From a virus, in the IMG/VR virus record IMGVR_UViG_3300044640_001880, positions 1-39,785 of that record: a stretch of 39,785 bases of DNA, one strand, 5' to 3'. This document shows positions 1 to 39,785 of this stretch, piece after piece. The notes beneath the pieces are model-generated. The model did no database searches. It was given only the letters and a program-made list of their open reading frames with translations, and was not told the DNA's origin. The position numbers were made by a program, and so were the translations under genes. Each line of letters starts with the position of its first letter. The stretch's first letter is position 1.

Positions 1-75
1 GTCGTGTATAACCGGCAGCGCTGTCGTGATAACCGGCGCCGGGTGTTGTGAATCAATGACTTGTGTTGTGGTCAT
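1..75 (-). CDS. intI: 5' fragment of the integron integrase gene (duplicate of the right-end copy)
   Basis: The ATG complement is at 73-75 and the frame runs off the left edge. The 25 codons are identical to the start of the full intI gene at 38646-39707. It is present only because the window ends overlap. On a circular molecule this is the same gene, not a second integrase. Confidence 0.85.
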   Translation of the reverse strand, partial: MTTTQVIDSQHPAPVITTALPVIHD

Positions 76-126
76 GGTGGGATACACGACAGGTCGTTAC
101 TTGTAGGTGTTCGTGGAAATTGTGTT
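1..126. repeat. Terminal direct repeat, left copy (intI start + attI)
   Basis: Identical to 39633-39758. It holds the first codons of intI (start codon complement at 73-75) and attI up to the crossover GTT at 124-126. The copies diverge at base 127: the left copy continues CGGCAGC (cassette A) and the right copy continues AGGCGCG (cassette C). This is most simply the closure of a circular genome, with a branch exactly at the recombination point. Confidence 0.95.
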
Positions 127-130
127 CGGC
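76..130 (+). other. attI: attI recombination site, left copy (cassette A junction)
   Basis: This is the short non-coding segment between the intI start and the first cassette, where integron integrases insert cassettes. The crossover triplet GTT is at 124-126 (G124^TT). It is followed by cassette A. The exact outer limit of attI is inferred; the crossover base is fixed by comparison with the right-end copy. Confidence 0.8.
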
Positions 131-498
131 AGCTTCTCAAGGTGCACCTTGTACCCAGCGCGCCGCATGGCCTCATGGATAAAGCTTTGTCCGATGTTTG
201 TTCCCAGCCACTGCACCACCGTCGCGGCGACAGCCTTGTGCGAGTCATCAACGGCAATCGTCGGCCTCCGGCTTCTCCAGATCATCATGAGAGGGTCGTC
301 AGCGTGCGGCTCTGTTGTGAGCATGTCGAAGGTTCCGACCCCGCTGTTGATCCCCTTCCTTCCTCGGCACCATTCGGCCCACAAGGCTGCAAACTCAAGC
401 TCTAGGCCTGGGTCGTCGCACCGCAGCCGGTGAGAGTGAAGCCCTTCATGTGGCGCCAAAAGCCGAACAAGTCGTTCGACCGAATTCGCGTTGCTCAT
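97..498 (-). CDS. Cassette A ORF3: hypothetical protein, 133 aa
   Basis: Not recognised as a known family. It is the last of three overlapping minus-strand genes in cassette A. Its ATG (498) overlaps the stop of the preceding 61-aa gene as ATGA, implying translational coupling. The body is mixed alpha/beta-like with several Trp residues (LWAEWCRG, MMIWRSRR) and no membrane segment. The last residues (NTISTNTYK) and the TAA stop at 97-99 are encoded by attI, not by the cassette, so the C-terminal tail depends on which site lies upstream. It points toward attI and intI, opposite to normal cassette genes. Function unknown. Confidence 0.75.
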   Translation of the reverse strand: MSNANSVERLVRLLAPHEGLHSHRLRCDDPGLELEFAALWAEWCRGRKGINSGVGTFDMLTTEPHADDPLMMIWRSRRPTIAVDDSHKAVAATVVQWLGTNIGQSFIHEAMRRAGYKVHLEKLPNTISTNTYK

Positions 499-680
499 CG
501 TTCAACTCCGGTGTTGTGCAGCATGGCCGTGCGGTCCAGCCAGTCGCGCAGCCGCTGCACCCCGATGCGCTGGAGCTTGTCGCGCTGGCCCGGTGTCAGG
601 CGCACCGGCACCGGGATCATCTTTTCGCCGGGGGCCTTTGCAGGCCGCCCGGTCTTCTTTGGCTCGGCCTGCTCGCTCAA
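495..680 (-). CDS. Cassette A ORF2: small ribbon-helix-helix-like protein, 61 aa
   Basis: A basic N-terminus (KKTGRPAKAPGEK) is followed by a strand-helix-helix pattern (MIPVPVRLTPGQRDKL...RLRDWLDR), as in small phage and plasmid RHH DNA-binding proteins. The start appears to be TTG at 678-680, overlapping the TGA of the upstream 63-aa gene, which indicates coupled translation from a weak start. It sits mid-operon in cassette A. It resembles in style the 54-aa RHH protein of cassette B. A DNA-binding role is inferred, not shown. Confidence 0.7.
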   Translation of the reverse strand: MSEQAEPKKTGRPAKAPGEKMIPVPVRLTPGQRDKLQRIGVQRLRDWLDRTAMLHNTGVER

Positions 681-868
681 AACTTCACCCGGCCGTCAGC
701 GCCCAGCAGGCGGACGCATGCGCCGCTGTCCATCGACTTCTTAACCTGCTTTCCAGTCACAATGACGTGACCGTTGTTCAAGCACCATTCGCGCAGTTGT
801 TTGAGCGAAGCGCAGCGGACTACGCTGCTGATATGGCCGTTGTTTTCGGTGCGGTGTGCTGTGAACAT
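677..868 (-). CDS. Cassette A ORF1: hypothetical protein, 63 aa
   Basis: First gene of the cassette A operon. The ATG at 868 is preceded by CCGGAGAGAAAC, a good Shine-Dalgarno. The same leader style precedes the 235-aa early gene at 3975 and the 60-aa gene at 1637. The protein has a KQLREWCLNNGH helix and a GKQVKKSMDSG turn. It resembles small phage accessory proteins but I cannot name a family. Its stop overlaps the next start. Being phage-style, it suggests the cassette contents came from a phage early region. Confidence 0.7.
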   Translation of the reverse strand: MFTAHRTENNGHISSVVRCASLKQLREWCLNNGHVIVTGKQVKKSMDSGACVRLLGADGRVKF

Positions 869-904
869 GTTTCTCTCCGGTTGGTTGCTGCATCCGTTGA
901 TGCA

Positions 905-965
905 GTGGTGTTAATGTAATACCGAAACAAGATCAACGCAATCACTTTCTGTAATACCCAAACGC
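905..965 (-). promoter_or_regulatory. Putative cassette A promoter with direct repeats
   Basis: On the minus strand TTGCGT and TACATT are spaced 17 bp apart, just upstream of the 868 start. The region contains two TGTAATACC direct repeats (about 914-922 and 950-958) about 36 bp apart, possibly an operator. Lower GC than its surroundings. No activity evidence. Confidence 0.35.
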
Positions 966-985
966 GGCGCAAGGTCTTTTAGGCA

Positions 986-1042
986 GCACAACTCTGTGCT
1001 CCAGCGGGACGCTTTCAGCGCCCCTGAGCGTCGGTGTTAGCC
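986..1042 (+). other. attC: attC1 (3' recombination site of cassette A)
   Basis: 57-bp imperfect palindrome. The left core is GCACAAC (986-992), the inner boxes are GCTCCAGCGGG and its partner CTGAGCG, and the right core is GTTAGCC (1036-1042). The left inner box has an extra C relative to the right one. That is the extrahelical-base asymmetry of attC sites and orients it in the normal direction from attI. It shares AACTCTG and CGGTGTTAG with the three other sites. Confidence 0.85.
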
Positions 1043-1210
1043 CGCCTTCTGTTCGGCACGGGCTCTTTTCCTCGCCAGCTTGTCGGCGTACTCTGCCAGC
1101 GCAGGCACGTCGTCAGGGTGTACCCATCGCTTCCACTGCACGCGGCCTGCTGCAAGCTCGCGGGCTTTGCGCTCGGCTTGGCGCTGGGCTGCTGTCTTGG
1201 CGGCATTCAT
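1037..1210 (-). CDS. Cassette B ORF4: hypothetical basic protein, 57 aa
   Basis: Starts at MNAAKTAAQRQ, whose ATG overlaps the TGA of the 46-aa gene upstream (ATGA). The protein is highly charged and helical, with a central WKRWVHPDDVPALAEYADK segment. This kind of short protein is common in early regions of betaproteobacterial phages. Its TAA stop (1037-1039) is the TTA of the attC1 right core, so the gene fills the cassette right up to the crossover. Longer upstream starts are rejected because they run antisense-like through the 46-aa gene. Function unknown. Confidence 0.7.
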   Translation of the reverse strand: MNAAKTAAQRQAERKARELAAGRVQWKRWVHPDDVPALAEYADKLARKRARAEQKAG

Positions 1211-1347
1211 GCAGGCACAACCCGCGTTTCGTACTGCGCCAGTTCTTTGGCGGCAGCGTTGGCCGCGCGTTTTTGGGTGCTGTAGTTGCCAAGGTGGCTT
1301 TCGCACCATTGGCCTGTCAGAACCGACTTGTATTGCACCTTGAACAT
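1207..1347 (-). CDS. Cassette B ORF3: hypothetical protein, 46 aa
   Basis: Short gene with a good ribosome binding site (CAGGAG, 7 bases before ATG at 1347), starting MFKVQYKSVL. It has a GQWCESHLGNYSTQKRAA segment, then an Ala-rich helix. It overlaps the next gene by ATGA. The pattern resembles small dsRBD-like or phage nucleic-acid proteins, but the match is too weak to name. Support comes from the RBS plus coupling, not homology. Confidence 0.6.
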   Translation of the reverse strand: MFKVQYKSVLTGQWCESHLGNYSTQKRAANAAAKELAQYETRVVPA

Positions 1348-1371
1348 GCTGCACTCCTGTGTAGTTGCCGG

Positions 1372-1458
1372 TTACGTGGTCCGGCGTGCTTGGGCCAGCC
1401 GAAGCCGTTCAACCCATTCGATAACGCGCACCGATCGAACTTTGTGAAAAGGGCTCAC
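1372..1458 (-). CDS. Cassette B ORF2: possible 28-aa coupled peptide
   Basis: A GTG start at 1456-1458 overlaps the TGA stop of the 60-aa gene upstream (GTGA). The 28-residue basic helical peptide contains VRVIEWVERLRLAQARR and ends TAA at 1372-1374. It fills what would otherwise be a gap in a continuous minus-strand operon. Very short, so moderate to low confidence. Confidence 0.4.
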   Translation of the reverse strand: MSPFHKVRSVRVIEWVERLRLAQARRTT

Positions 1459-1637
1459 GCCCCGGAAAGAACCTTGTTGAGGTGGTCCCGCGCCTGCTGG
1501 CGCAGCATGTCGCCAATGTCGCGGGAGGGCTTGGGGCCGTTGCCGGCCGCGATGGCGGCCAGTTCGGCGGCCTCGCGCGCACGGGCGCGGGCCAGGTCTT
1601 GTTGAAAGGTGTAGTCGTTGAAAGTGGCTTGGTTCAT
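1455..1637 (-). CDS. Cassette B ORF1: hypothetical protein, 60 aa
   Basis: The ATG at 1637 follows AACCGGAGCGCAAC, the same leader style as genes at 868 and 3975. The protein is mostly one Ala/Arg-rich helix (LARARAREAAELAAIAAG) followed by a second helix with RDIGDMLRQQARDHL. It is probably a small helical phage-type protein; no family assigned. It is the first gene of the minus-strand cassette B operon and is divergent from the plus-strand RHH gene at 1728. The shared intergenic region has paired TTGAATCAC repeats. Confidence 0.65.
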   Translation of the reverse strand: MNQATFNDYTFQQDLARARAREAAELAAIAAGNGPKPSRDIGDMLRQQARDHLNKVLSGA

Positions 1638-1670
1638 GTTGCGCTCCGGTTGGTGTGTCGACGGGTGTTA

Positions 1671-1727
1671 TTGAATCACAAAAACTAGAAGCGTGCAAGT
1701 ATTTTTTGAATCACGTATACTTTTCGC
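1671..1727. promoter_or_regulatory. Divergent control region of cassette B with TTGAATCAC repeats
   Basis: AT-rich spacer between the 60-aa (minus) and RHH (plus) genes. The plus-strand -10 TATACT (1716-1721) puts the transcript start near 1728, the A of the ATG, predicting a leaderless mRNA. TTGAATCAC occurs at 1671-1679 and 1706-1714, 35 bp apart, suitable for autorepression by the RHH protein. A minus-strand TTGCAC-17-TTCAAT pair would serve the other operon. Confidence 0.45.
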
Positions 1728-1892
1728 ATGGAACAGACAAAACACAAGGGCGGGCGACCGCCGAAACCAGACGCCGAAAGGCTGGTGCAGCGCTCTATCC
1801 GCCTGCCGCCTGACCTGTGGGCCAAGATCGACGCGAACGGACTGGAGTGGCTTCGTAGGGTCATCCGTCGCGCTCGTCCACCGGCTGGCTAA
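1728..1892 (+). CDS. Cassette B RHH-type regulator, 54 aa (forward-oriented)
   Basis: A Lys/Gly/Arg/Pro-rich N-terminal arm (KHKGGRPPKPDAE) is followed by strand-helix-helix (LVQRSIRLPPDLWAKIDANG, then LEWLRRVIRRAR), typical of Arc/CopG-like repressors. It is the only cassette gene oriented normally, away from attI, with its TAA stop (1890-1892) inside the left core of attC2. No Shine-Dalgarno is visible, and the -10 box is 6 bp before the ATG, so it is probably leaderless. It likely controls the divergent operon through the TTGAATCAC repeats; that is inference. Confidence 0.7.
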   Translation: MEQTKHKGGRPPKPDAERLVQRSIRLPPDLWAKIDANGLEWLRRVIRRARPPAG

Positions 1893-1937
1893 CTCTGCGG
1901 TCCAGCGGACTCGCGCCGCTGACCTACGGTGTTAGGC
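1887..1937 (+). other. attC: attC2 (3' site of cassette B)
   Basis: 51-bp imperfect palindrome: left core GGCTAAC (1887-1893), inner boxes GTCCAGCGG and CCGCTGACC, right core GTTAGGC (1931-1937). The extra C in the left inner box gives forward orientation. The right-end copy of attI in this window is joined to base 1932 exactly after G1931, so this site has been used, or bypassed, in the alternative junction. Confidence 0.9.
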
Positions 1938-2288
1938 GCGAAATTCCTGCAGCGCTTTCAAGAACCCCGCGGCAAAAGCGCCTCGCTCTCGGTTGCGCAA
2001 CTCGCCTCGTTGGCCAGGCAGAAACTCGGCGCGCAACAGCAGTGCGTTTTCCTCGTCCGCCGTGAACAGCATCAGCGTTTCGTGCTCGCGCCGCCGGATG
2101 CGCTCGCCAAAGATTTCAACCATCTTCGGTGGGCTGTATGTAGGCGGCCTGTCGTTCGGAACAAGGCTCGGCGGCTCCATCACGGCGAGTCGAATGGTTT
2201 GGCCTTGTGCAAGGCGCTCCCACAGCCACATCGGAATATCCACTACGGTGATTGGCTCCAATTGGTGGGTGTAAAGAACTGCGTTCAT
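1932..2288 (-). CDS. Cassette C: hypothetical protein, 118 aa
   Basis: ATG at 2288 with an AGGAG ribosome site. The N-terminal region (VDIPMWLWERLAQGQ) and the YSPPKMVEIFGERIRRREHETLML region suggest a compact, mostly alpha/beta soluble protein. No family recognised. It faces attI. Its TAA stop (1932-1934) is the TTA of the attC2 right core, so it needs no external stop. The same 3' end appears again at 39757-39785 fused directly to attI, showing this cassette can be the first in the array. Confidence 0.75.
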   Translation of the reverse strand: MNAVLYTHQLEPITVVDIPMWLWERLAQGQTIRLAVMEPPSLVPNDRPPTYSPPKMVEIFGERIRRREHETLMLFTADEENALLLRAEFLPGQRGELRNRERGAFAAGFLKALQEFRA

Positions 2289-2315
2289 CCGGTGCTCCTG
2301 TTGTCAAAAGTGCAA

Positions 2316-2374
2316 GCCTAACTCTGCGGCCCAATCGGACCGCCTACGGCGCCCGCTGGCCTTCGGTGTTAGGT
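2316..2374 (+). other. attC: attC3 (3' site of cassette C, 59 bp)
   Basis: Left core GCCTAAC (2316-2322) and right core GTTAGGT (2368-2374), both perfect matches to RYYYAAC/GTTRRRY. The inner boxes GGCCCAATCGG and GCTGGCC differ by an extra C on the left. This is the textbook 59-base element. A CCGCCTACGGCG hairpin lies between the inner boxes. Confidence 0.92.
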
Positions 2375-2871
2375 TGCTCATTGGCAAAGTCCAGCATCGC
2401 GGTGATGAACTCTTGCCATTGATCGGTCGAGAGCTTCAGCGGCTTCGTTAACTGGTTGCCATCAAGCCACAGGGCGGTGGTGTTCAGTTCGGTTTCGTTC
2501 GGCGTGCTGGTGTCCCACCAGGCGCCGCGCACCGATGTACCCCAGTTCAGTCGGAGCGAGAAAAACGGCATGTTCACCATAAGAAGGAACCAGCGGTAGT
2601 TCGCCGGGTCCGCGATGTACTCAAAGGTCTTGCGGTCGCTGATCGCGCGGCAGACTTCAAGCGCTTTGATGCCGAACTCCTCGGACTTCTCGTCGTCGTA
2701 GGTGGTGAAGTCGAAGATGTAGTCGCCCAAGTACGCCGCTCGGTTTTCTGGCGTGCCGTCCGGGTTCAAATCGCGCCAGGCTGCAAAGCCTTCTTCCAAC
2801 ATGCGGCGGTAAATGTTCCAAGAACCTAACTCTGCGCTCATGGCGGACACGCCCTCGGTTTCAGTGGTCAT
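2344..2871 (-). CDS. Cassette D: hypothetical acidic protein, 175 aa
   Basis: The ATG at 2871 has AGGAG 9 bases upstream, and both start and RBS lie inside attC4. A second in-frame ATG at 2841 (MSAELGSW) is also inside attC4. The soluble acidic protein is rich in aromatic residues (GDYIFDFTTYDDEKSEEFG, NYRWFLLMVNMPFFSLRLNW) with no membrane helix. Such orphan proteins are typical of integron cassettes; no family recognised. The last residues (PNTEGQRAP) are encoded within attC3, past the crossover. The start overlaps the stop of the 81-aa gene (ATGA). Confidence 0.75.
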   Translation of the reverse strand: MTTETEGVSAMSAELGSWNIYRRMLEEGFAAWRDLNPDGTPENRAAYLGDYIFDFTTYDDEKSEEFGIKALEVCRAISDRKTFEYIADPANYRWFLLMVNMPFFSLRLNWGTSVRGAWWDTSTPNETELNTTALWLDGNQLTKPLKLSTDQWQEFITAMLDFANEQPNTEGQRAP

Positions 2872-2913
2872 CGGTTCTCTCCTGCGGCGTGCCGCATAGC
2901 TTCGGTGTTAGCC
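2824..2913 (+). other. attC: attC4 (last recognisable attC of the array, 90 bp)
   Basis: Left core ACCTAAC (2824-2830), then TCTGCGCTCATGGCGG; right half GCCGCATAGC, CGGTGTTAGCC with core GTTAGCC (2907-2913). The extra C in the left inner box keeps the same orientation. It is longer than the other sites because its terminal loop holds the start and ribosome site of the cassette D gene and the end of the next gene. No further attC was found to the right. Confidence 0.75.
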
Positions 2914-3113
2914 GGTCGCGCTTTCTGAAGCGCTAGGAAGTCTCGGCGGGGTATGCGCCAAGCATTCACGATCACAAGGTTTCTTCCCCTGGCTCGCTGA
3001 TCGGCAGCAAATTTGCCAAGCCGCCCAGCAATAAAGGTGTTGGCTTGCACACCATCAAGAATGATGTGCAGAAGGTAATAGGGCGCCAGGGCGTCAAGGA
3101 TTCGCATAAACAT
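2868..3113 (-). CDS. Hypothetical protein, 81 aa, reading into attC4
   Basis: Begins MFMRILDALAPYYLLHIILDG and contains a GRNLVIVNAWRIPRRDFLALQ strand-helix segment; no family recognised. It starts 3 bases after the stop of the 44-aa gene, with only a weak GCGGG ribosome site. The final 14 or so residues (NTEAMRHAAGENR) come from attC4. If all cassettes were removed, the frame would instead continue into attI and end NTISTNTYK, the same tail as the cassette A protein. It is either the last cassette remnant or the first phage gene beyond the array. Confidence 0.65.
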   Translation of the reverse strand: MFMRILDALAPYYLLHIILDGVQANTFIAGRLGKFAADQRARGRNLVIVNAWRIPRRDFLALQKARPANTEAMRHAAGENR

Positions 3114-3116
3114 TTG

Positions 3117-3251
3117 TTAGCCCGCAATCAGCTTGCGAAGCATCAGCAACACAGCCTCCTGCATCAATCTCTCAACGCTTCCCTCTGGAGTAGCAATAGC
3201 GGCCAGTTTTTCATGCGCGGTCGTCAGTTCTTCAATCGTTGGGGTGGTCAT
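3117..3251 (-). CDS. Hypothetical small early protein, 44 aa
   Basis: Starts MTTPTIEELTTAHEKLAA with AAGGAAAACC before the ATG. A longer frame starts at 3302 but lacks a ribosome site and overlaps the upstream gene, so the shorter start is preferred. The protein is one or two helices (EGSVERLMQEAVLLMLRKL). It lies in the leftward early operon between the 235-aa and 81-aa genes. Function unknown. Confidence 0.6.
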   Translation of the reverse strand: MTTPTIEELTTAHEKLAAIATPEGSVERLMQEAVLLMLRKLIAG

Positions 3252-3267
3252 GGTTTTCCTTCGGTAG

Positions 3268-3975
3268 TTACTCTTTGATTCCGTGGTGGCGCTCGACGCC
3301 ACGGATCAATGCCATGACGCGGTTTTGCGTGAATCCAAGTTCAAAGCAAAGCTGGTGAGCCTGCTGCTCCGTCATCGGCTTGCTGGCCTGTGGGCGGGTG
3401 AATAGCTGCGTTCCGGCAGCAGGGTATGGGTTTATCCAATCAACCTCACACCAACTCATGCCACTGGCATATCTGCCAGCATGCACAGTGCCAATCGGAT
3501 CGTCTTGCGCTGGCTCTTGCTGCGTTGCCGGGCGGTTTCGCTCGGTTTCCAGTGCCTTAAACCATCCAAATGCGTATGCGGTTCTCTCTGCTTCTGTCTT
3601 GCACTCTGGCGGTGCTGGGATGGTGGGCTTCTCTACCTGCTGCAAAAGCTCATCACGCAATCCCGGATGCTTTGCGATCATTTCAGCAAACAGCGGCTTG
3701 CGAGCTACCTGCTGGGCTGGCTGGGGTGCTGCGAGCGCTGCGGCAATCTCAGAGTAGACAAGGTGCGGTGTGTGGCGCCCGACGTATTCAAGCGCAGCAT
3801 TCAGTGCAAGGCTTCGTTCCGGCACAGCAGGCACAGGCGCGAGGGCCTGGATAGCTGCTCTTGCGTAGTCCTTCACAAATGCTTCGAGCGAAGCGACTTG
3901 TGTTCCTGGCTCGCTTGGGTAGATGATCTTTTGCCATTCCTCAAAGGTTGGCAGCGGCGGCAAGGGTTCATTCAT
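3268..3975 (-). CDS. Hypothetical early phage protein, 235 aa
   Basis: ATG at 3975 preceded by CCGGAGAGAAAGC. The architecture looks modular: an N-terminal Pro-rich part (LPPLPTFEEWQK), a helix (ASLEAFVKDYARAAIQAL), a Gln/Pro/Ala linker, a middle segment, and a C-terminal helical pair (MTEQQAHQLCFELGFTQNRV, then LIRGVERHHGI). The ending is common in proteins from Burkholderiales phage early regions, but no biochemical role is known to me. It is the last clearly phage-core gene before the cassette region. Confidence 0.75.
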   Translation of the reverse strand: MNEPLPPLPTFEEWQKIIYPSEPGTQVASLEAFVKDYARAAIQALAPVPAVPERSLALNAALEYVGRHTPHLVYSEIAAALAAPQPAQQVARKPLFAEMIAKHPGLRDELLQQVEKPTIPAPPECKTEAERTAYAFGWFKALETERNRPATQQEPAQDDPIGTVHAGRYASGMSWCEVDWINPYPAAGTQLFTRPQASKPMTEQQAHQLCFELGFTQNRVMALIRGVERHHGIKE

Positions 3976-4027
3976 GCTTTCTCTCCGGTTGCTTTGGTCG
4001 TGGACTCGACAAATACGGCGCTCGCCT

Positions 4028-4585
4028 TCAAAGGCTCACGACTTCCACGTCGTGCGGCCGCTTTTTCCCGCTGCTGATCTCGTGGACTCGGCGCTCGGTT
4101 TGGCGGTGGGCGCGGATGGTGGTCCGGGCGGGCAGGGCGGCCAGCAGATCGGCGTAGTCGTCCAAGACGGCGCGCATGGTTTTGATCCCGGGCCCGTCCA
4201 GGCGGATCGAGCCGTGGCGGCTTTTGCGGCCTGCCGCTGTGGCGAGCGCGGTGATCGCGTCTTGCAGCATGCCGCTGGCGTCGGTGACGCGCACGGGTTC
4301 GCCATCGCATCCCAGCCACCATCCATCGCACAGCGCGCCGTTTTCGTCGGGCAGGGTGCCGCCTGCGGTGGTGAGGGTTTCGAGCATGTTGACGGCGTCG
4401 CAGCACAGCCGCCAATCGTCCGGCGTCGGCTGCTCTCCGCTTTCAATCGTCTGCAGGGCGTCGCGCATGCGGCCCAGTTGCCAGGCGCGGTTTTCGGCGC
4501 TGAGCGGTTCGGTGGTGCTGGCCATGAGTTCGTCGATGAAGCTGTACATGTAGGCGTGCGCGGGCTTGCGTTTGCGGCGGTTCAT
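4028..4585 (-). CDS. Hypothetical early phage protein, 185 aa
   Basis: Start chosen at MNRRKRKPAHAY (4585), whose ATG overlaps the TGA of the upstream 236-aa gene. The protein is mostly helical with a conserved-looking DDWRLCCDAVNMLETL segment and a GPGIKTMRAVLDDYADLL helix near the end. It has no membrane segment. I associate this style with unnamed early proteins of Mu-like and lambda-like phages of Burkholderiales; function unknown. Part of the coupled leftward operon. Confidence 0.75.
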   Translation of the reverse strand: MNRRKRKPAHAYMYSFIDELMASTTEPLSAENRAWQLGRMRDALQTIESGEQPTPDDWRLCCDAVNMLETLTTAGGTLPDENGALCDGWWLGCDGEPVRVTDASGMLQDAITALATAAGRKSRHGSIRLDGPGIKTMRAVLDDYADLLAALPARTTIRAHRQTERRVHEISSGKKRPHDVEVVSL

Positions 4586-5292
4586 GTCAGCAACTCCACC
4601 CTGGCCGGCGTGTTTTGCCACGCGAGGTGTTTGCGCCAGTATTCGACCGACCCTAGCGGTTGGTTGCTGTTGCGCACGGGCGCGGCGCGCTGGGGCTTTT
4701 CGGCTTTGATGCGCAGCCAGGTGTCGCGGTGCACGTAACGCGCGATGTGGTTGTCGCTGACGTTGTAGATCGTGGCGTAGGTCTGCGCGGTGCCGATGGT
4801 GTGGCGGGTCACTTTGAGCGGGATCTTGGTCGCGGCGGCGATCTGTCGGCTGGTGAGTCCTTCGCTGTCGTCGTGGCGCTTGAGCAGGTCCTCGATGCGT
4901 TTTCTGTGTGGGCTTTTTCCGGTGTCGCGCGGCGAGGCTGCGGCCGGGTTGATCGCGGTGCGTCTGGGTTTGTCGGCGCTATGGCGGCGCAGTCCGTCGG
5001 CTTTGGCGGCGGTGGCGCTGGCCTGCCGCTGCAGCGCGGCGCGGCCGGCGTCGGTGATGACGTAGCGCACGCGGCCGTCAGCTTGGGGCAGCAGGCGGCG
5101 CACCTGTCCGGCGTTGACGGCGTCGCGCAAGCGATTGCGCATGGCCCGGCCCTGGATGTCGCCGCCGTGCACGGCGCACAGGTCGGGCGCGGTGGTCCAG
5201 CGGGTGGCCTTGCCGTCGGCGTCGACCTCGCTGGCTGCGGCCAGGTGCTTCAGCAGCGTGACGCGGGTGGGGGTGATGATGGAGACAGTCAT
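4582..5292 (-). CDS. Putative DNA-binding protein with two winged-helix-like regions, 236 aa
   Basis: Start chosen at MTVSIITPTRVTLL (5292; ATGA overlap with the DUF4406 gene). The N-terminal half (about residues 15-90) reads as a winged helix (AMRNRLRDAVNAGQVRRLLP, then VRYVITDAGRAALQ). A basic linker (DKPRRTAINP, GKSPHRKRIED) leads to a second helix-turn-helix-like unit (GLTSRQIAAATKIPLKVTRH). The C-terminus has GSVEYWRKHLAWQ. It probably binds DNA in early regulation or replication; the exact role is not deducible. Confidence 0.7.
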   Translation of the reverse strand: MTVSIITPTRVTLLKHLAAASEVDADGKATRWTTAPDLCAVHGGDIQGRAMRNRLRDAVNAGQVRRLLPQADGRVRYVITDAGRAALQRQASATAAKADGLRRHSADKPRRTAINPAAASPRDTGKSPHRKRIEDLLKRHDDSEGLTSRQIAAATKIPLKVTRHTIGTAQTYATIYNVSDNHIARYVHRDTWLRIKAEKPQRAAPVRNSNQPLGSVEYWRKHLAWQNTPARVELLT

Positions 5293-5648
5293 TTGACGCT
5301 GTCCAAAAACATCTTGATCACGCTCTGCGACGCAATCAGATTCAGCCACTCATCGACCGTGTTTACTTGCCAGCCCAACCCCCTGGCCAGCGCGATCTCG
5401 ACCTTAGCGCCTCGGCTGTTTTCGTGGCCGGGCAGGGTCGCGACGGCGTCGCAGGTGGCCACCATGTCGCTGATGTCTTTGCGCATGAAGCTGAGCCACG
5501 GAGACCCGCGCGGGATGGTGCTTTCCGCTGGGCTGACGACAAGGTAACCGGCCTCGCGCAGCTGCCTGGCCGCTTCGTGGAAGGCGGGATAGTTGTCCTC
5601 GGGCATGCCGGACATGGGGCCGCTGAGGTAAAGGATCGGCAGGCTCAT
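5289..5648 (-). CDS. DUF4406 / nucleoside deoxyribosyltransferase-like protein, 119 aa
   Basis: Opens with ILYLSGPMSGMPEDNYPAFH and continues LREAGYLVVSPAE, WLSFMRKDIS, CDAVATLPGHENSRGA and EIALARGLG. This is the DUF4406 signature, a Rossmann-like fold related to nucleoside 2-deoxyribosyltransferases and common in phages. The ENSRGA motif is where that superfamily binds nucleotide. Length matches the family. A role in nucleotide or base metabolism during infection is plausible but unproven. Coupled by overlaps on both sides. Confidence 0.85.
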   Translation of the reverse strand: MSLPILYLSGPMSGMPEDNYPAFHEAARQLREAGYLVVSPAESTIPRGSPWLSFMRKDISDMVATCDAVATLPGHENSRGAKVEIALARGLGWQVNTVDEWLNLIASQSVIKMFLDSVK

Positions 5649-5830
5649 CGCGCAGCCTCCTGGGGCGTCTTGTCGGACTCCACGCCCGCGCGGTGCAGGG
5701 CTTCGCGCTGCAGGTCCAGGGCGATGGATTGGGCGGGGGTGGCGCGCTGGCCAACGGCGGGCGCGAAGCTGCTGTAGACCGCGACGGTTCCGGCGTCGGT
5801 GTCGCGCAAGGTGATGGTGATGTGTGCCAT
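5645..5830 (-). CDS. Hypothetical early protein, 61 aa
   Basis: Start at MAHITITLRDTDAG (5830). A beta-hairpin-like beginning (ITITLRDTDAGTVAVYSSF) is followed by a helix (TPAQSIALDLQREALHRAG). Similar short proteins with an SIALDL helix occur in Burkholderiales phage early operons. The TGA overlaps the ATG of the DUF4406 gene. The longer start at 5905 lacks support. Function unknown. Confidence 0.65.
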   Translation of the reverse strand: MAHITITLRDTDAGTVAVYSSFAPAVGQRATPAQSIALDLQREALHRAGVESDKTPQEAAR

Positions 5831-5856
5831 GTGATGTTTGTGTCGCGCGTGGTGGG

Positions 5857-6279
5857 TCAAAAGAAGATGTACAGGCCCATGACGATCCAGCTCGCGGCCA
5901 GGCAACCGAACACCAGGCGCCGCAAACGCACAGCTTCGCGGCGCTCGGCTTCAGTGCGCCTGGGCTTGATCGGGGGCATCTCGGCGCGCTGGGTGTGGCG
6001 CTCGCTGGCTTGGCCTTGCAGCGCCTGGGCGGCTTCGCGGTAGCGGCAGCGGCTGGTGCATTCGGGCGTCAAGTTGCACACGCCGAAGCCACACACCGCG
6101 CTTTCGTGGTGCTCGGTTTTGATCATGCGCAGCGGCGTCGGGGCCTTGCGCGGTGCGGTTGTCCTGGTGTCCAGCAGGTAGGGGCTGGGCATCTGGGCGC
6201 GGCTGGTGTTGTCCAGCAGGCGCCGGGCGCTGGCGGTGCCTTCGCTGGTGTGGGTGGTTTTGTTGGTTGCGGTGGTCAT
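5857..6279 (-). CDS. Hypothetical membrane-anchored Cys-cluster protein, 140 aa
   Basis: Start at MTTATNKTTHTSEG (6279). Polar N-terminal half, then a Cys cluster (CGFGVCNLTPECTSRC) that could bind metal or form disulfides. A basic stretch (KPRRTEAERREAVRLRRL) leads into a C-terminal hydrophobic segment (VFGCLAASWIVMGLYIFF), predicting a tail-anchored topology with the bulk in the cytoplasm. No family recognised. It neighbours another single-pass membrane gene (6285-6455). Confidence 0.65.
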   Translation of the reverse strand: MTTATNKTTHTSEGTASARRLLDNTSRAQMPSPYLLDTRTTAPRKAPTPLRMIKTEHHESAVCGFGVCNLTPECTSRCRYREAAQALQGQASERHTQRAEMPPIKPRRTEAERREAVRLRRLVFGCLAASWIVMGLYIFF

Positions 6280-6284
6280 GGTGT

Positions 6285-6455
6285 TTAGCCCCAGATGGCA
6301 AAGATGATCAGGAGGGACAGCAGCGCGACGATGGACGCGGCCAGCACGATCTCGTCTTTTTTGTTGCTGCTGCTGGTTTTCTCGAAGAGATGGCCGCGCG
6401 CGTAGGGGCCGAACGCTTCTTCGAGGGTGCGCGGGTGTTTGCGGGTGGTTTGCAT
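6285..6455 (-). CDS. Small single-pass membrane protein, 56 aa
   Basis: Start at MQTTRKHPRTLEEAFGPYAR (6455). The N-terminal TRKHPRTLEEAFGPY motif plus a C-terminal membrane helix (IVLAASIVALLSLLIIFAIW) is a recurrent layout for tiny proteins in early operons of Burkholderiales phages. Its role is unknown. Its ATG overlaps the end of the upstream 46-aa gene (TGATG). Confidence 0.7.
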   Translation of the reverse strand: MQTTRKHPRTLEEAFGPYARGHLFEKTSSSNKKDEIVLAASIVALLSLLIIFAIWG

Positions 6456-6595
6456 CACTGGCCGCCTTTCTTGCGAAGCGCTGCAGCGGCGGCCATTGCA
6501 CGCTTGTGCTGACCGGCGGCGCGGTTGATGAACGCGATCAAGCGCTGCATCGCGGCTTCGCACTGGGCGTCGATGGGGGTGCGGTTGGTGGTCAT
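6455..6595 (-). CDS. Hypothetical small early protein, 46 aa
   Basis: Start at MTTNRTPIDAQCEAAMQRL (6595), overlapping the stop of the 100-aa gene. Amphipathic helices (EAAMQRLIAFINRAAGQHKR), an Ala-rich helix and a basic tail. Longer frames to 6718 are rejected because they overlap the 100-aa gene in another frame. Function unknown. Confidence 0.6.
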   Translation of the reverse strand: MTTNRTPIDAQCEAAMQRLIAFINRAAGQHKRAMAAAAALRKKGGQ

Positions 6596-6894
6596 GCGGC
6601 CACCTTTGCGCTGGTGAATGCCTTCGTGCCGTGGAAGGCGTAGAGCAGCTGTCCGTAATTCTTGGCTTGGACGAAGTTGGTGTTTGCCTTTTCGCGCACC
6701 GCGATGAATGCTTCCCATAGCGCGCGGGTCTTCTCGGTCTGGCTCGAAAAGTTTTTTCTTTTCATCTCAGCCAGATACAGGGCAAGCAAGCGCGAGCCAG
6801 CGGCGTCGCATTCGAGCGCGACGATCGCAAAAATGTGTGTGACGCTTTGGCCGGGGCCTGGACCGTCGGGAAACCTGGGGTGTTGCTGTGCCAT
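6592..6894 (-). CDS. First gene of the leftward early operon, hypothetical, 100 aa
   Basis: ATG at 6894 with a strong GGAGGG ribosome site, about 25 bases downstream of the predicted PL start. The soluble protein has helices FAIVALECDAAGSRLLALYL and TRALWEAFIAVREKANTNF and a C-terminal GQLLYAFHGTKAF. By position it corresponds to the first PL gene of lambda-like phages (often antirepression, antitermination or host takeover), but the sequence shows no recognisable motif, and no N-type Arg-rich antiterminator is visible. Confidence 0.7.
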   Translation of the reverse strand: MAQQHPRFPDGPGPGQSVTHIFAIVALECDAAGSRLLALYLAEMKRKNFSSQTEKTRALWEAFIAVREKANTNFVQAKNYGQLLYAFHGTKAFTSAKVAA

Positions 6895-6925
6895 CTGGCC
6901 CTCCGTTGTTTGAACGTGAGGTTAT

Positions 6926-6996
6926 TCTACAAACGTAGAAATCAGGCTGTCAACAGGTGTAGAAAAGAAAATGTAAAATTCAACATGTGTAGCTGG
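6926..6996. promoter_or_regulatory. PL promoter and left operator cluster (OL1-OL3)
   Basis: The minus-strand promoter has TTGACA (6950-6955), 18 bp, then TAGAAT (6926-6931). Operators matching TTCTACA-NN-TGTAGAA lie at 6927-6942, 6951-6966 and 6981-6996; the first covers the -10 and the second the -35. A possible divergent plus-strand -10 TAAAAT (6976-6981) for the 7047 gene overlaps the third. Classic lambda-like repressor control of leftward transcription. Confidence 0.8.
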
Positions 6997-8271: not shown

Positions 8272-8312
8272 AACTACAGGTGTAGACAAATGCATTTCTA
8301 CAGTTGTAGAAT
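8272..8312. promoter_or_regulatory. PR promoter and right operators (OR1-OR2)
   Basis: Operators lie at 8272-8287 and 8296-8311; the second is a perfect TTCTACA-GT-TGTAGAA palindrome. The plus-strand promoter TAGACA (8283-8288), 18 bp, TAGAAT (8307-8312) is embedded in them. It mirrors PL, with the same -10 and spacing. The transcript should begin about 8319-8320, at the A of the cro ATG. Confidence 0.8.
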
Positions 8313-33742: not shown

Positions 33743-34178
33743 CTGGATCGACCAGACGGCCCGCGCGCTGATGCTGCTGGCGGGCGTGGTGATGGTGTTG
33801 CACTTCGTGGCGATGGCGGGTTACATGAAGCGCGGGCCTCGGGTGCGGTTTGTGTTGCTGCCGGTGCTGGTGGGTGCCGGGGCGTTCCTGATCGGCTGCG
33901 CGGTGGTTGGTTCCATCGACCTGGGGTTGATCGCGATGGCTTTTTCGAGCCTGCCGATGCTGGCGCTATTGATGGTTGTCTGGGGCAGCGGCGGGCACGT
34001 GTCCGAGGTGTTCGAGCGGCAGGCGCAAGCGAGGGACCTGGAGCGGACGCGCCACTATTACCGCGAGGCGGCGGCCGGCGTGGACCTGGTGACCGATGGG
34101 CTGGTGACCGACAGCGGGCTGGCTGAGCTGCAGGCGGCGGAACATCGGGCACACCATGTTGAAAGGGCTGCGGCATGA
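33729..34178 (+). CDS. Second holin-like membrane protein, 149 aa
   Basis: Three hydrophobic segments (ALMLLAGVVMVLHFVAMAGY, FVLLPVLVGAGAFLIGCAVV, LIAMAFSSLPMLALLMVVWG) are followed by a long charged helical tail (QAQARDLERTRHYYREAAAG). It is likely a partner holin or antiholin to the preceding gene; dual membrane genes are common in lysis cassettes. No direct evidence of which acts as which. Confidence 0.6.
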   Translation: MQPFDWIDQTARALMLLAGVVMVLHFVAMAGYMKRGPRVRFVLLPVLVGAGAFLIGCAVVGSIDLGLIAMAFSSLPMLALLMVVWGSGGHVSEVFERQAQARDLERTRHYYREAAAGVDLVTDGLVTDSGLAELQAAEHRAHHVERAAA

Positions 34179-35221
34179 AGTCGATCAGCGGCACGCTGGC
34201 GGCGCCGTTTCCGTGGTTTGGCGGTAAGTCCAACGCCTGCGAGCAGGTGTGGGCGGCTTTTGGGGTGGTGGATAACTACGTGGAACCCTTCGCGGGTTCG
34301 GCTGCCATGCTGTTGGGCGCCCCAAAGACCCCTGGCAAGCGAATCGAGACCATCAACGACTTCGACGGCATGGTGGCCAACTTCTGGCGCGCTGTGGCGG
34401 CGGATCCCGAGGCTGTGGCGCACGCGGCTGACTGGCCTTGCAACGAGGTGGACCTCTTTGCGCGGCATTCCTGGCTGGTGCGCCATCGGGAAAGCATCAC
34501 CGACCAGCTACACGCCGACCCCGCGTGGTTTGACGCGCGCAGCGCGGGCTGGTGGTGCTGGGGCGCCTGTAACTGGATTGGATCGGGCTGGTGCAGCGGC
34601 GAGGGTCCATGGGTTCACGACGGCACGACGCTGGTCGACCGCCGCAAGCTCCCGCACCTGGGTGACGCCGGGAAGGGCATCAACCGCCAGCTCCCGCACC
34701 TGGGTGACGCCGGGAAGGGCATCAACCGCCAGCTCCCGCACCTGTCAGCCGGGCAGGGCGATGAACACCCGCGCTCTGCCTACATTCGCGAATGGATGCG
34801 CGCGCTGCATGATCGGCTGCGCGATGTGCGCGTCACGTGTGGAGACTGGTCCCGAACTGTCAAGGATTCCGTGACAGTTCGCCATGGCTTGACCGCCGTT
34901 TTTCTCGACCCTCCGTATGCCAAGGGCGCCATGGACTACAGCGCGGGCGGCATGGGCCTGGGCATTGCCGAGGATGTACGCGCCTGGTGCGATGCCAATG
35001 GCGACAACAAGGCGCTGCGCATCGTGTTGTGTGGTCACGCGGGCGAACACGACGCGCTGCTTGCCAAAGGGTGGCACACCCGCACATGGACCGCGCGCAA
35101 GGGGTACGCGATGACCGATGAAGCGGTCGAGAACAGCGCGGGCGAAACACTCTGGTGCAGCCCGAACTGCATCCCGGAAGTGAAAACGATCGGCCTGTTT
35201 GACTTTATGGAAACCGCATGA
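34175..35221 (+). CDS. D12-class DNA adenine N6-methyltransferase, 348 aa
   Basis: Motif X PFPWFGGK (residues 11-18), motif I VEPFAGSAAML (about 36-46, AdoMet binding) and motif IV DPPY (about 245, catalytic) are in the order of Dam-like (D12) enzymes. The central region contains an unusual tandem repeat LPHLGDAGKGINRQ (two copies plus a partial) next to a Trp/Cys-rich stretch (GWWCWGACNWIGSGWC). It probably methylates adenine in phage DNA to evade restriction. It is located within the lysis block, between holins and endolysin. No partner restriction enzyme is seen. Confidence 0.9.
   Translation: MKSISGTLAAPFPWFGGKSNACEQVWAAFGVVDNYVEPFAGSAAMLLGAPKTPGKRIETINDFDGMVANFWRAVAADPEAVAHAADWPCNEVDLFARHSWLVRHRESITDQLHADPAWFDARSAGWWCWGACNWIGSGWCSGEGPWVHDGTTLVDRRKLPHLGDAGKGINRQLPHLGDAGKGINRQLPHLSAGQGDEHPRSAYIREWMRALHDRLRDVRVTCGDWSRTVKDSVTVRHGLTAVFLDPPYAKGAMDYSAGGMGLGIAEDVRAWCDANGDNKALRIVLCGHAGEHDALLAKGWHTRTWTARKGYAMTDEAVENSAGETLWCSPNCIPEVKTIGLFDFMETA
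34649..34743 (+). repeat. 42-bp tandem repeat in the methyltransferase gene
   Basis: Units 34649-34690 and 34691-34732 are identical (CTCCCGCACCTGGGTGACGC...), followed by a partial third copy at 34733-34743. The repeat is in frame, so a change in copy number would add or remove 14 residues without a frameshift. Confidence 0.9.
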
Positions 35222-36821: not shown

Positions 36822-37045
36822 TGTGTAATTCCAGTGCAAAATCCTGACCGTCAGGGGCGTTTTGTGGGCGTCCTGACCGCTGCCCGCCTATGGGCGCCCG
36901 TGCTGTTTTGACCGTCAGGTGCCTTCACACGGCAGGGGTCGCAGGTTCGAACCCTGCACCGCCCACCAAATAAAGCCATGTAATTCAATGAGTTACGTGG
37001 CTTTTTCTTTTTGAGTTCTCAGGGTCTGTGTAATTGCCTGTGCAA
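36822..37045. other. attP: Phage attachment site attP (tRNA-Val(CAC) 3' core with arm sites)
   Basis: Core 36920-36968 is the 3' half of a tRNA-Val gene: anticodon loop TTCACAC (anticodon CAC), T arm GCAGG-TTCGAAC-CCTGC, acceptor ACCGCCC and ACCA. It is flanked by likely integrase arm sites. TGACCGTCAGG occurs at 36845-36855 and 36909-36919 with a variant near 36874. TGTGTAATT..(C)TGTGCAA occurs on both sides (36822-36840 and 37027-37045). Arms on both sides and no 5' half of the tRNA indicate an intact attP, not attL or attR. Confidence 0.85.
36972..37007. terminator. Bidirectional terminator beside the att core
   Basis: AAAGCCATGTAA pairs with TTACGTGGCTTT (one wobble), with A and T runs on either side. 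It separates the rightward late operon from the leftward int/HNH operon. It may derive from the tRNA gene's own terminator, carried with the att core. Confidence 0.75.
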
Positions 37046-37046
37046 T

Positions 37047-37538
37047 TTACGCGGCAGACCATCGCGCCGCAGAAGCTGCCCTGCATGCTTCTGCTCGCGT
37101 TCGGTGCGGCGTGGTCAGTGCTCGAGCCTCACTCCACCCATATCGATCAATTCGGCTTCTGATTGTTGCAGATGGGATGCCTGTGCGCTCAGACCAGGCT
37201 GCAGCGGTCATCGTCAGGCCATCATGGGTGAACAAGCGGTTGTTCCTTCGGTTCCTCTGCTGCTCGGTCATCGTCACCCAGCGGCAGTTGCCCGGCTCGT
37301 AGTGGCCGTGAAAGTCGACTCGATCAAGCGAGCTGGCTTTTGGCATTTCGCCCATGTCAGCTAGGAAATTCTCGAACCACCGCCAACGTTCGCAGACAGT
37401 GATGCCCTTTGCGCCGTAGAGGGCGTAGTTCTGTTGTCGGGGATTCGTGCACCTGCGGATCATGGACTCCCACGCCTTGTAAGTCGGAGACTTTTTCCCG
37501 CGGCTGGCGTGCCCGTGCGTGGTGTTGAAGTGTTTCAT
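37047..37538 (-). CDS. HNH/AP2-type homing endonuclease-like protein, 163 aa
   Basis: YKAWESMIRRCTNPRQQNYA, LYGAKGITVCERWRWFENFL, SLDRVDFHGHYEPGNCRWVT and TEQQRNRRNNR are the conserved line of phage-borne HNH/AP2-related endonuclease or DNA-binding proteins (GxxPxNCRW with downstream EQxRNRR). The C-terminal part (TMTAAAWSERTGIPSATIRS) is a helix-turn-helix. The ATG overlaps the stop of int (ATGA), so it is co-translated. Its TAA adjoins an attP arm repeat. It may be a selfish homing gene or assist DNA transactions at att. Confidence 0.8.
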   Translation of the reverse strand: MKHFNTTHGHASRGKKSPTYKAWESMIRRCTNPRQQNYALYGAKGITVCERWRWFENFLADMGEMPKASSLDRVDFHGHYEPGNCRWVTMTEQQRNRRNNRLFTHDGLTMTAAAWSERTGIPSATIRSRIDRYGWSEARALTTPHRTRAEACRAASAARWSAA

Positions 37539-38479
37539 CCAAATGCCTTTACGAGCGCGTCTCGTTGCTGATCTATTTGCATGTGACTGTAGCGCTCTGT
37601 GGTCTTGATCGAGCTGTGGCCCAGGATCTTGGCGACGGTGTACAAATCGGCGCCGCTGGCCAGCAGGATGGTGGCGCAGCTGTGGCGCAGGTCGTGGAAG
37701 TGCACATCGGGCATCTTCGCGGCCTCTCTGGCGCGGCGGAAGCCGGTTTTCAGGCCCTCGGCGTTGATCTGCAGGGGTAGCCACGCCAACCACGGCCGCA
37801 GCGCCGGGATGATGGGCACGATCCGGGTCTTGAGGGTCTTGGTGTTCCCGGCCTTGATCATGATGGTGGTCTCGCTGATGTCGGCGGGCTGGATCTTGAG
37901 CACTTCGCCGCGTCGGCACCCGGTCAGCAGCGCGATCCAGATCGCGGCGCGCACCTGTTCGCTGGCGTGGTCGGCGATCTGCTTGACTTGCTCGATGTTG
38001 AGGTGCGTCTCGCGGGCGTTGTGTTCGGGCAGGCGCTTGACGTGGGCGCCGTAGTCCTCGGGCGTAAGACCTTGTTCCCAGGCCATGTGCAGCGCTTTCT
38101 TGAGCGCGCCCAGGCTTCGGTTGATGGTGGCGGGTGCGTAGGCGCCGGTCATGTCTTTGATCATGTGGGCGGCGCACTGGCGGGCCTGGCTGGCGCGGTA
38201 TTGCTCGGCCCATGGGCCCAGGCGCAGGGCGTGGAATCGCGCGGTGTCGGGGCTGCGCAGGGTGTCGCAGTGTGTCAGGTACAGGCCCATGATGTGAGGT
38301 AGGCGCGGGTCTCCGGGGATGGCTGGGGTTTTGTTGACGGCGAGCGCGGCTCTTAGCTCGGCCTCTGTGCGCTTGGCGTCACCCGCAGTTGCACCCGTCG
38401 GCAGGATTCGGTGAACACGGCGGCCGGCGACCATGATGCCGACGTGGCGGCGGCCTTGTTTGTCTGTCCAGGTTGACAT
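37535..38479 (-). CDS. int: Phage tyrosine-recombinase integrase, 314 aa
   Basis: Start chosen at MSTWTDKQGRRHVGIMVAGR. The N-terminal arm-binding and core-binding regions precede catalytic motifs: LLTGCRRGEVLKIQ (Arg I), HFHDLRHSCATILLASGADL (His-x-x-Arg), KILGHSSIKTTERYSHMQ (His/Tyr nucleophile). It integrates the phage at tRNA-Val via the attP 0.6 kb away. The start lies inside the xis gene (127-bp overlap in another frame); the stop overlaps the HNH gene. It differs from IntI in lacking the integron-specific helix. Confidence 0.93.
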   Translation of the reverse strand: MSTWTDKQGRRHVGIMVAGRRVHRILPTGATAGDAKRTEAELRAALAVNKTPAIPGDPRLPHIMGLYLTHCDTLRSPDTARFHALRLGPWAEQYRASQARQCAAHMIKDMTGAYAPATINRSLGALKKALHMAWEQGLTPEDYGAHVKRLPEHNARETHLNIEQVKQIADHASEQVRAAIWIALLTGCRRGEVLKIQPADISETTIMIKAGNTKTLKTRIVPIIPALRPWLAWLPLQINAEGLKTGFRRAREAAKMPDVHFHDLRHSCATILLASGADLYTVAKILGHSSIKTTERYSHMQIDQQRDALVKAFG

Positions 38480-38643
38480 GGTTGGTACTGCTCCCGAAGC
38501 CACGCGCGGCACTCAGCCAGGTCGAATCGCTTGCCGCGCACACCGACGGGAGTGTAGGGCAGTCCGGCCAGCAGCCAGCGGCCCACGGTGGAGTCGCTGA
38601 CGCCCATGGAGGCGCAGAGCTGGGCACGGGTGAGTTCGGACAT
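38353..38643 (-). CDS. xis: Excisionase / HTH DNA-binding protein, 96 aa
   Basis: MSELTRAQLCASMGVSDSTV, GRWLLAGLPYTPVGVRGKRF, DLAECRAWLREQY is a MerR-like winged helix as in phage and plasmid excisionases (HTH_17 type). The C-terminal 40 residues overlap int in another frame. The ATG lies two bases after the TGA of intI. Position directly before int supports an excisionase role controlling recombination directionality; assignment by fold and context. Confidence 0.75.
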   Translation of the reverse strand: MSELTRAQLCASMGVSDSTVGRWLLAGLPYTPVGVRGKRFDLAECRAWLREQYQPCQPGQTNKAAATSASWSPAAVFTESCRRVQLRVTPSAQRPS

Positions 38644-39707: not shown

Positions 39708-39758
39708 GGTGGGATACACGACAGGTCGTTACTTGTAGGTGTTCGTGGAAATTGTGTT
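39633..39758. repeat. Terminal direct repeat, right copy (intI start + attI)
   Basis: Identical to 1-126. Beyond base 39758 the sequence follows 1934 onward rather than 127 onward, giving the attI-cassette C junction. Confidence 0.95.
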
Positions 39759-39762
39759 AGGC
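39708..39762 (+). other. attI: attI recombination site, right copy (cassette C junction)
   Basis: Crossover GTT at 39756-39758. Next bases AGGCGCG continue cassette C exactly from base 1934. The join is what recombination attI x attC2 would create on loss of cassettes A and B (or before their gain). Confidence 0.85.
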
Positions 39763-39785
39763 GCGAAATTCCTGCAGCGCTTTCA
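39757..39785 (-). CDS. 3' fragment of the cassette C protein gene
   Basis: The TTA complement stop at 39757-39759 and upstream codons (LQEFRA) equal 1932-1960. The rest lies beyond the window edge. It duplicates the gene at 1932-2288 in the alternative junction. Confidence 0.85.

Follow-up and report, generated by a model that had tools for sequence, protein, structure and literature searches.

Integrons are usually defined by cassettes that are inserted in a single orientation, in which they can be read by a common promoter. How an array can be expressed when its genes run against the orientation of the attC sites was the question raised by IMG/VR record IMGVR_UViG_3300044640_001880, whose 39,785 bases were analysed over their whole length (hereafter the window). 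The record represents a temperate tailed phage with terminase, portal, capsid, tape measure, repressor and integrase genes (PHROG matches). The contig ends overlap, as 1-126 is identical to 39633-39758, and the map is thus circular. On its minus strand the leftward promoter PL (6953-6924) is followed by the early genes (6894 to 2868), the cassette array (2907 to 125), attI, the integron integrase gene intI, an excisionase (xis)-like open reading frame (ORF) and the phage integrase gene int, and a complete integron is therefore located between the leftward early operon and xis-int. With a probability of roughly 0.82, the window contains a functional phage integron whose IntI belongs to a lineage dedicated to phages, with genes reversed in their cassettes and read from PL. 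This reading is carried by the anatomy of the locus, the polarity of the genes, the IntI clade, the recombinant junctions and the sharing of cassettes among phages, all of which were read directly from the sequences.

The attC sites were searched for with a covariance model built from 18 aligned attC sites of other phage contigs, the sites of the window not being used. Exactly five sites stood out in the window, all on the plus strand with 26-54 bits, while the minus strand at the same places scored at most 15.2 bits, 18-40 bits below the plus strand. An earlier note on this DNA had reported four attC sites; all four were real, but a fifth at 462-519 had been overlooked. The extra C in the L'' inner box was seen in the four sites reported earlier. 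This asymmetry and the model together confirmed that the attC sites are oriented normally and that the cassette ORFs, lying nearly all on the minus strand, are truly reversed. Folding of the attC strands had been suggested as a check of orientation, but the top and bottom single strands folded about equally well, and folding energy was dropped as a strand test.

The cassette boundaries were supported by a second property. In 5/5 cassettes the R'' box read from the sequence matches, as an exact reverse complement, the seven bases with which that cassette begins (R''/own-start pairs GCCGAAC/GTTCGGC, GCACAAC/GTTGTGC, GGCTAAC/GTTAGCC, GCCTAAC/GTTAGGC and ACCTAAC/GTTAGGT). As four positions are free, each agreeing by chance in 1/4 of cases, the pairing in all five cannot be attributed to chance, and it is the pattern expected of a unit that was once a closed circle. 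The pairing is symmetric and holds no information on orientation, which came from the extra L'' C and the model scores.

With one exception, the cassette genes lie on the minus strand and have the same direction as intI, xis-int and the leftward early genes. The co-direction of the cassettes with PL and the early genes on the circular map, proposed earlier, was borne out by the leftward genes from 2868 to 6894, all of which are on the minus strand. The three genes assigned to a cassette A (97-498, 495-680 and 677-868) stood, but they belong to two cassettes, A1 and A2, rather than one. Cassette B, described as an overlapping mini-operon of four genes, did contain four ORFs, but only the first two overlap and the ORF 1728-1892 lies on the plus strand. 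The latter is probably a real gene; its homologue in phage contig L017 likewise runs against the genes around it. No function could be assigned to the cassette proteins of the window other than the RHH-like ones and a member of phrog_18399. The gene of cassette D has a homologue (54%) in a reversed cassette of another phage contig (L015). The genes also reach into the recombination sites. The stop codon of the gene in cassette C is the TAA of its own R box, attC A1 holds a Shine-Dalgarno-like GGAG and the ATG (498) of gene A1, and attC D holds a Shine-Dalgarno-like AGGAG and the ATG (2871) of gene D. The overlaps of stop and start codons by 4 nucleotides inside these two sites (495-498 between genes A2b and A1, 2868-2871 between ORF 2868-3113 and gene D) suggested that an attC may couple the translation of adjacent genes.

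The same polarity was found in other phages. IntI relatives were confirmed by tblastn and their loci were taken from viral contigs and bacterial genomes, the bacterial sample being the best 80 matches. Our own attC scanner, which gave approximately 0.06 false matches per 10 kb in shuffled sequence, showed that attC sites lead away from intI in the viral set (84:1) as in the bacterial set (48:1). Genes were called by a simple codon-usage caller with GC-binned codon models, which replaced a caller trained on each locus that had made antisense calls in GC-rich loci (L087/L088). With the scanner, reversed cassette ORFs amounted to 110/115 in viral contigs and to 6/31 in bacterial contigs; for the two bacterial exceptions that were inspected (L118 and L114), the reversal rests on 41-aa ORFs. 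When cassettes were defined by the covariance model, 43/43 scorable viral cassettes were reversed and 23/23 bacterial ones were classical. The classical arrangement, in which ORFs follow the attC orientation and lead away from intI, was thus found neither in the window nor in any of the 43 related phage cassettes, and the polarity noted earlier in the window is shared by other phage integrons. The gene upstream of intI was co-directional with it in 59/61 viral loci, compared to 14/34 bacterial loci. The first sizeable ORF after intI encoded a tyrosine recombinase in 33/50 and a serine recombinase in 4/50 loci (together 37/50). Many phage cassettes were tightly packed, with stop codons at the R box and start codons 13-55 bp after attC or inside it.

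In an IntI tree constructed by a quick method, with Shimodaira-Hasegawa-like approximate likelihood ratio test (SH-aLRT) support and without bootstrap, the phage IntI formed a single clade of 69 rows (SH-aLRT 97), consisting of 68 viral contigs and one contig of a metagenome-assembled genome (MAG) identical to a viral one. This pair, the Rubrivivax MAG contig JAJTDE010000039.1 and an IMG/VR phage contig (L108/L008), equal in length and identical in IntI, hints at the host of part of the clade. The phage-like contig L065 carries reversed cassettes although its IntI is sister to Lampropedia and not a member of the main phage clade, possibly a second, independent inversion. In the virus Rctr41k (KX853513.1, L023), which came from a methane-oxidising culture, a relative of IntI is encoded among co-directional genes, and our scanner detected no attC.

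A promoter for the array was sought on both strands. PL had been placed at 6926-6955; the promoter is present, with 11/12 matches, but its position was corrected to that given in Table 1. Five palindromes of the TCTACA..TGTAGA type, distributed over two divergent promoter regions beside a CI-like and a Cro-like gene, show a lambda-style layout of left and right operators (OL/OR). No sigma70-type match of at least 9/12 was found on either strand within 1-3100 or near intI, and no strong minus-strand terminator was found between PL and int. The interval 3250-2300, where a strong terminator would have spoken against read-through from PL, held just a weak 6-bp stem within a coding ORF and a 5-bp stem at 3053-3036, leaving the proposal intact; over the 8.5-kb region, 14 terminator-like sites were found compared to 10.9 expected by chance. 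The crossover point G/TT (the slash marks the point of exchange) lies between 39756 and 39757, 49 bp from the start codon of intI, and the attI-intI interval is similarly short in other phage loci. This gap leaves little space for the divergent promoter region that usually holds the cassette promoter Pc and the integrase promoter Pint. From PL with its operators, the lack of a strong terminator and the lack of a 9/12 match in the array or by intI, a single leftward transcript is likely, which would run from PL through the array, intI and xis to int and would be silent in the lysogen and switched on by infection or induction. The earlier proposal that the phage PL rather than a Pc expresses the array, with the transcript continuing into intI, was supported by the promoter and terminator scans, the plus-strand orientation of the attC sites, the 49-bp gap, the 2-bp spacing between intI and the xis-like ORF that precedes int, and the polarity throughout the clade.

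In the mechanism we propose, recombination would follow ordinary chemistry, with attI beside the start of intI, attC pointing away from intI and crossover at G/TT. The genes, opposite to the attC orientation, would be readable only from the end of the array that lies away from intI, through the repressor-controlled PL, in a single operon leading from the early genes through the cassettes, attI, intI and xis to int. The attC hairpins would serve as short intercistronic spacers, at times containing the signals from which the reversed gene starts, and attI, the end farthest from the promoter, would be where cassettes are gained and lost. The cassettes appear to provide exchangeable early accessory functions. 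Among 104 phage cassette proteins, mostly small and without assigned function, there were three N6_N4 methyltransferases, one D12 methyltransferase, an HD-domain protein, a PAPS (3'-phosphoadenosine-5'-phosphosulfate) reductase-like protein and one Tad2-like (Thoeris anti-defence-like) protein above the cut-off, along with two Acb2/Tad1-like proteins below it. A counter-defence role for part of this pool is plausible.

Several observations weigh against the reading of a PL-driven reversed array. Paired direct repeats of 14 bp and 19 bp, 35 bp apart, stand upstream of small genes and near RHH-like genes at 915/950 (915-963) in cassette A2 and at 1668/1703 (1668-1721) in cassette B. Weak and regulated promoters may exist within these two cassettes, PL then perhaps not being the sole source, or the repeats may give them added local control. 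The polarity rule is not absolute, as cassette B contains one plus-strand gene and a contig within the phage clade (L096) has a duplicated two-gene cassette with two classical ORFs. The trait occurs mainly in one clade, and the cassette counts are thus not independent events. The anti-defence matches were few, and none was within the window. The repeats near RHH-like genes, suggestive of local autoregulation, and the plus-strand gene would also favour an explanation in which every reversed cassette forms a unit complete with a promoter, as do the reverse toxin-antitoxin cassettes of chromosomal integrons, and the co-direction with PL is incidental. We consider this improbable, as the promoter scan of 1-3100 was negative on both strands and the reversal extends with few exceptions to dozens of unrelated cassettes, many of them tightly packed.

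IntI of the window matched TIGR02249 with 411 bits (cut-off 265), and its alignment retained the invariant R167, H298, R301, H324 and Y333 as well as the IntI-specific insert. Its attC sites have the R''/L''/L'/R' boxes with the extra L'' base and attI has the G/TT joining. The placement of attI relative to intI is that of the attI breakpoints in relatives. Capture of an ordinary chromosomal integron by a phage is on record for Vibrio and Shewanella phages (PMC9892861; Shewanella M16-3), but such an origin is very unlikely for the window. In M16-3, intI and the genes upstream of it are annotated on opposite strands, the reverse of the window, the IntI of the window groups in a clade with viral contigs instead of with chromosomal IntI, and the integron sits in the phage integration module, a placement common to its relatives.

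Integron recombination looks active in these phages. The last 27 bases of the window carry attI on into cassette C, whereas the left-end copy of attI goes on into cassette A1. The two sources of this junction share just 5 bases, including the predicted G/TT, and chance joining by the assembler is hardly likely. An exact search of the viral contigs for the window attI found no other contig, and array variants of the same phage could therefore not be found. Three other contig pairs (L032/L034, L043(=L048)/L044 and L083/L089) are identical over 1-2.5 kb, which start at the R box and extend past intI, and part exactly at the R box, with different sequence upstream. Two contigs (L012 and L017) have common backbone genes and different arrays. 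Cassettes also recur between phages, as seen for gene D of the window and for L022/L026 (100%) and L058/L090 (91%), and one gene set is common to L014, L074, L089 and L092. Among the viral loci L003-L097, 13/82 contigs have their start in the 260 bp upstream of intI, a pattern that assembly breaks at attI would produce; the corresponding number of contig ends downstream is 5/82, a comparison that provirus trimming may confound and that was not used as proof. That the attC-like repeats are merely fixed in a phage early operon without an active integron, the end junction being an assembly or polymerase chain reaction chimera, is scarcely credible: the window junction is known from one assembled contig end, but it lies exactly at G/TT with just 5 common bases, three other phage contig pairs differ at the same point, the R''/own-start pairing holds in 5/5 cassettes and IntI is intact.

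Table 1. Coordinates of the integron, its cassettes and associated phage features in the window (a dot denotes no strand).
Feature	Position	Strand	Remarks
attI, left copy	76-130	+	R box GTTCGGC 124-130; joined to cassette A1
Cassette A1	125-513	+ (by attC)	Between R boxes 124-130 and 513-519; reversed gene 97-498
Gene A1, 133 aa	97-498	-	Reading frame crosses attI; no family match
attC A1	462-519	+	26.2 bits, E 4.7e-4 in whole window; R'' GCCGAAC, complement of GTTCGGC
Cassette A2	514-1036	+	Between R boxes 513-519 and 1036-1042; two reversed genes
Gene A2b, 61 aa, Arc/RHH-like	495-680	-	Weak phrog_3431 Arc-like match, E 0.03
Gene A2a, 63 aa	677-868	-	No assigned function
attC A2	986-1042	+	31.1 bits on +, 6.9 bits on -
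Cassette B	1037-1931	+	Reversed ORFs 1037-1210, 1207-1347, 1455-1637; one forward ORF
Forward RHH-like gene, 54 aa (probable)	1728-1892	+	67% identical homologue in phage contig L017
attC B	1887-1937	+	44.3 bits on +, 15.2 bits on -
Cassette C	1932-2368	+	Reversed gene 1932-2288, 118 aa; joined straight to attI at 39745-39785
attC C	2316-2374	+	54.3 bits on +, 14.0 bits on -
Cassette D	2369-2907	+	Reversed gene 2344-2871, 175 aa; phrog_18399, 146 bits
attC D	2824-2913	+	32.8 bits on +, 5.9 bits on -
Leftward early genes	2868-6894	-	Every one co-directional with cassette genes
PL, TTGACA-18-TAGAAT	6924-6953	-	11/12 matches; best sigma70-type site on minus strand
Three repressor-type operators	6926-6993 (6926, 6950, 6980)	.	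Overlap PL
Two further operators	8273, 8297 (8273-8310)		At rightward promoter
Phage integrase int	37535-38479	-	PF00589, phrog_1
xis-like helix-turn-helix ORF, N-terminal part	38432-38643	-	phrog_66 excisionase E 2e-7; phrog_57 E 2e-9
intI, integron integrase, 353 aa	38646-39707	-	Alternative GTG start at 39719 in ORF list
attI, right-end copy	39708-39762	.	Same sequence as 76-126; R box GTTAGGC 39756-39762; joined directly to cassette C
Recombinant junction attI::cassette C	39745-39785	+	GTGTT/AGGCGCG...; tail identical to 1929-1960; omits A1, A2, B

The integron of the window resembles classical integrons (class 1 and chromosomal) in its IntI family, in attI by the intI start, in the extra C of L'', in an array leading away from intI and in G/TTRRRY boundaries. 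It differs from them in that the cassette genes oppose attC and run toward intI, and in being embedded in a phage operon with only the 49-bp gap between crossover and intI. It also differs in lacking, on the promoter side of intI, the LexA-type box that is expected of an SOS-controlled integron: no CTGT-N8-ACAG with up to one mismatch was found in the attI/intI start region, and the 12 LexA-type sites in the whole window equal the number expected by chance. In the reverse integrons of Treponema, intI and the cassette genes also have the same direction, but there intI is flipped, reading toward attI, and the cassettes are normal (PMC3607928); in the window it is the start of intI, not its end, that faces attI, and what is flipped is the cassette genes, intI keeping its normal place and direction. 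Integrons and CALINs (clusters of attC sites lacking integron integrases) have been described in phages (Vibrio p16, Shewanella M16-3, P1, TJE1 and PH101), the complete ones being captured chromosomal or class 1 types, and phage attC can be functional with IntI1; neither a phage-specific IntI clade nor reversed arrays were described there (PMC9892861). The window shares with these phages the presence of integron parts in a phage genome, but the M16-3 array is classical by annotation, whereas that of the window is reversed and belongs to a phage-specific IntI clade. As in a lambda-type leftward operon, repressor operators are present at two promoters and leftward early genes precede xis-int, which comes last; the difference is an integron inserted upstream of xis-int, which makes the distal part exchangeable. 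No earlier account of reversed phage cassettes was found in the open-access literature, most subscription journals and preprints lying outside this scope.

The phage IntI clade has kept the geometry of recombination and inverted the genes within the cassettes, which implies a separate cassette pool and a still unexplained route of cassette birth. A viral promoter would have taken over control of the cassettes and the integrase, and the newest cassette, usually the one nearest the promoter, would instead be the farthest from it. A cassette moved between the phage and bacterial pools would be antisense, suggesting that the pools are largely separate, and a comparison of the phage cassettes with the 80 bacterial loci gave no match. 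We give about even odds to the wider proposal of a phage-dedicated integron class with its own inverted pool, largely cut off from bacteria, that keeps exchangeable early and often counter-defence genes under PL. Phage-resistance genes are known among the cassettes of bacterial integrons. As some phage arrays contain methyltransferases and anti-defence-like genes, the arms race may use the same machine on both sides.

Some features of the neighbouring phage genes were also noted. The xis-like ORF begins 2 bp past the stop codon of intI and is followed by int. A sequence resembling a tRNA 3' end, GGTTCGAACCCTGCACCGCCCACCA, is located beside int at 36938-36968 and is a probable attP core. An Rfam search gave no match, and ARAGORN detected no tRNA. 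In the late region, the N-terminus of a DNA methyltransferase encoded at 34175-35221 resembles a methyltransferase that another phage carries in a cassette (L076:4299-5441).

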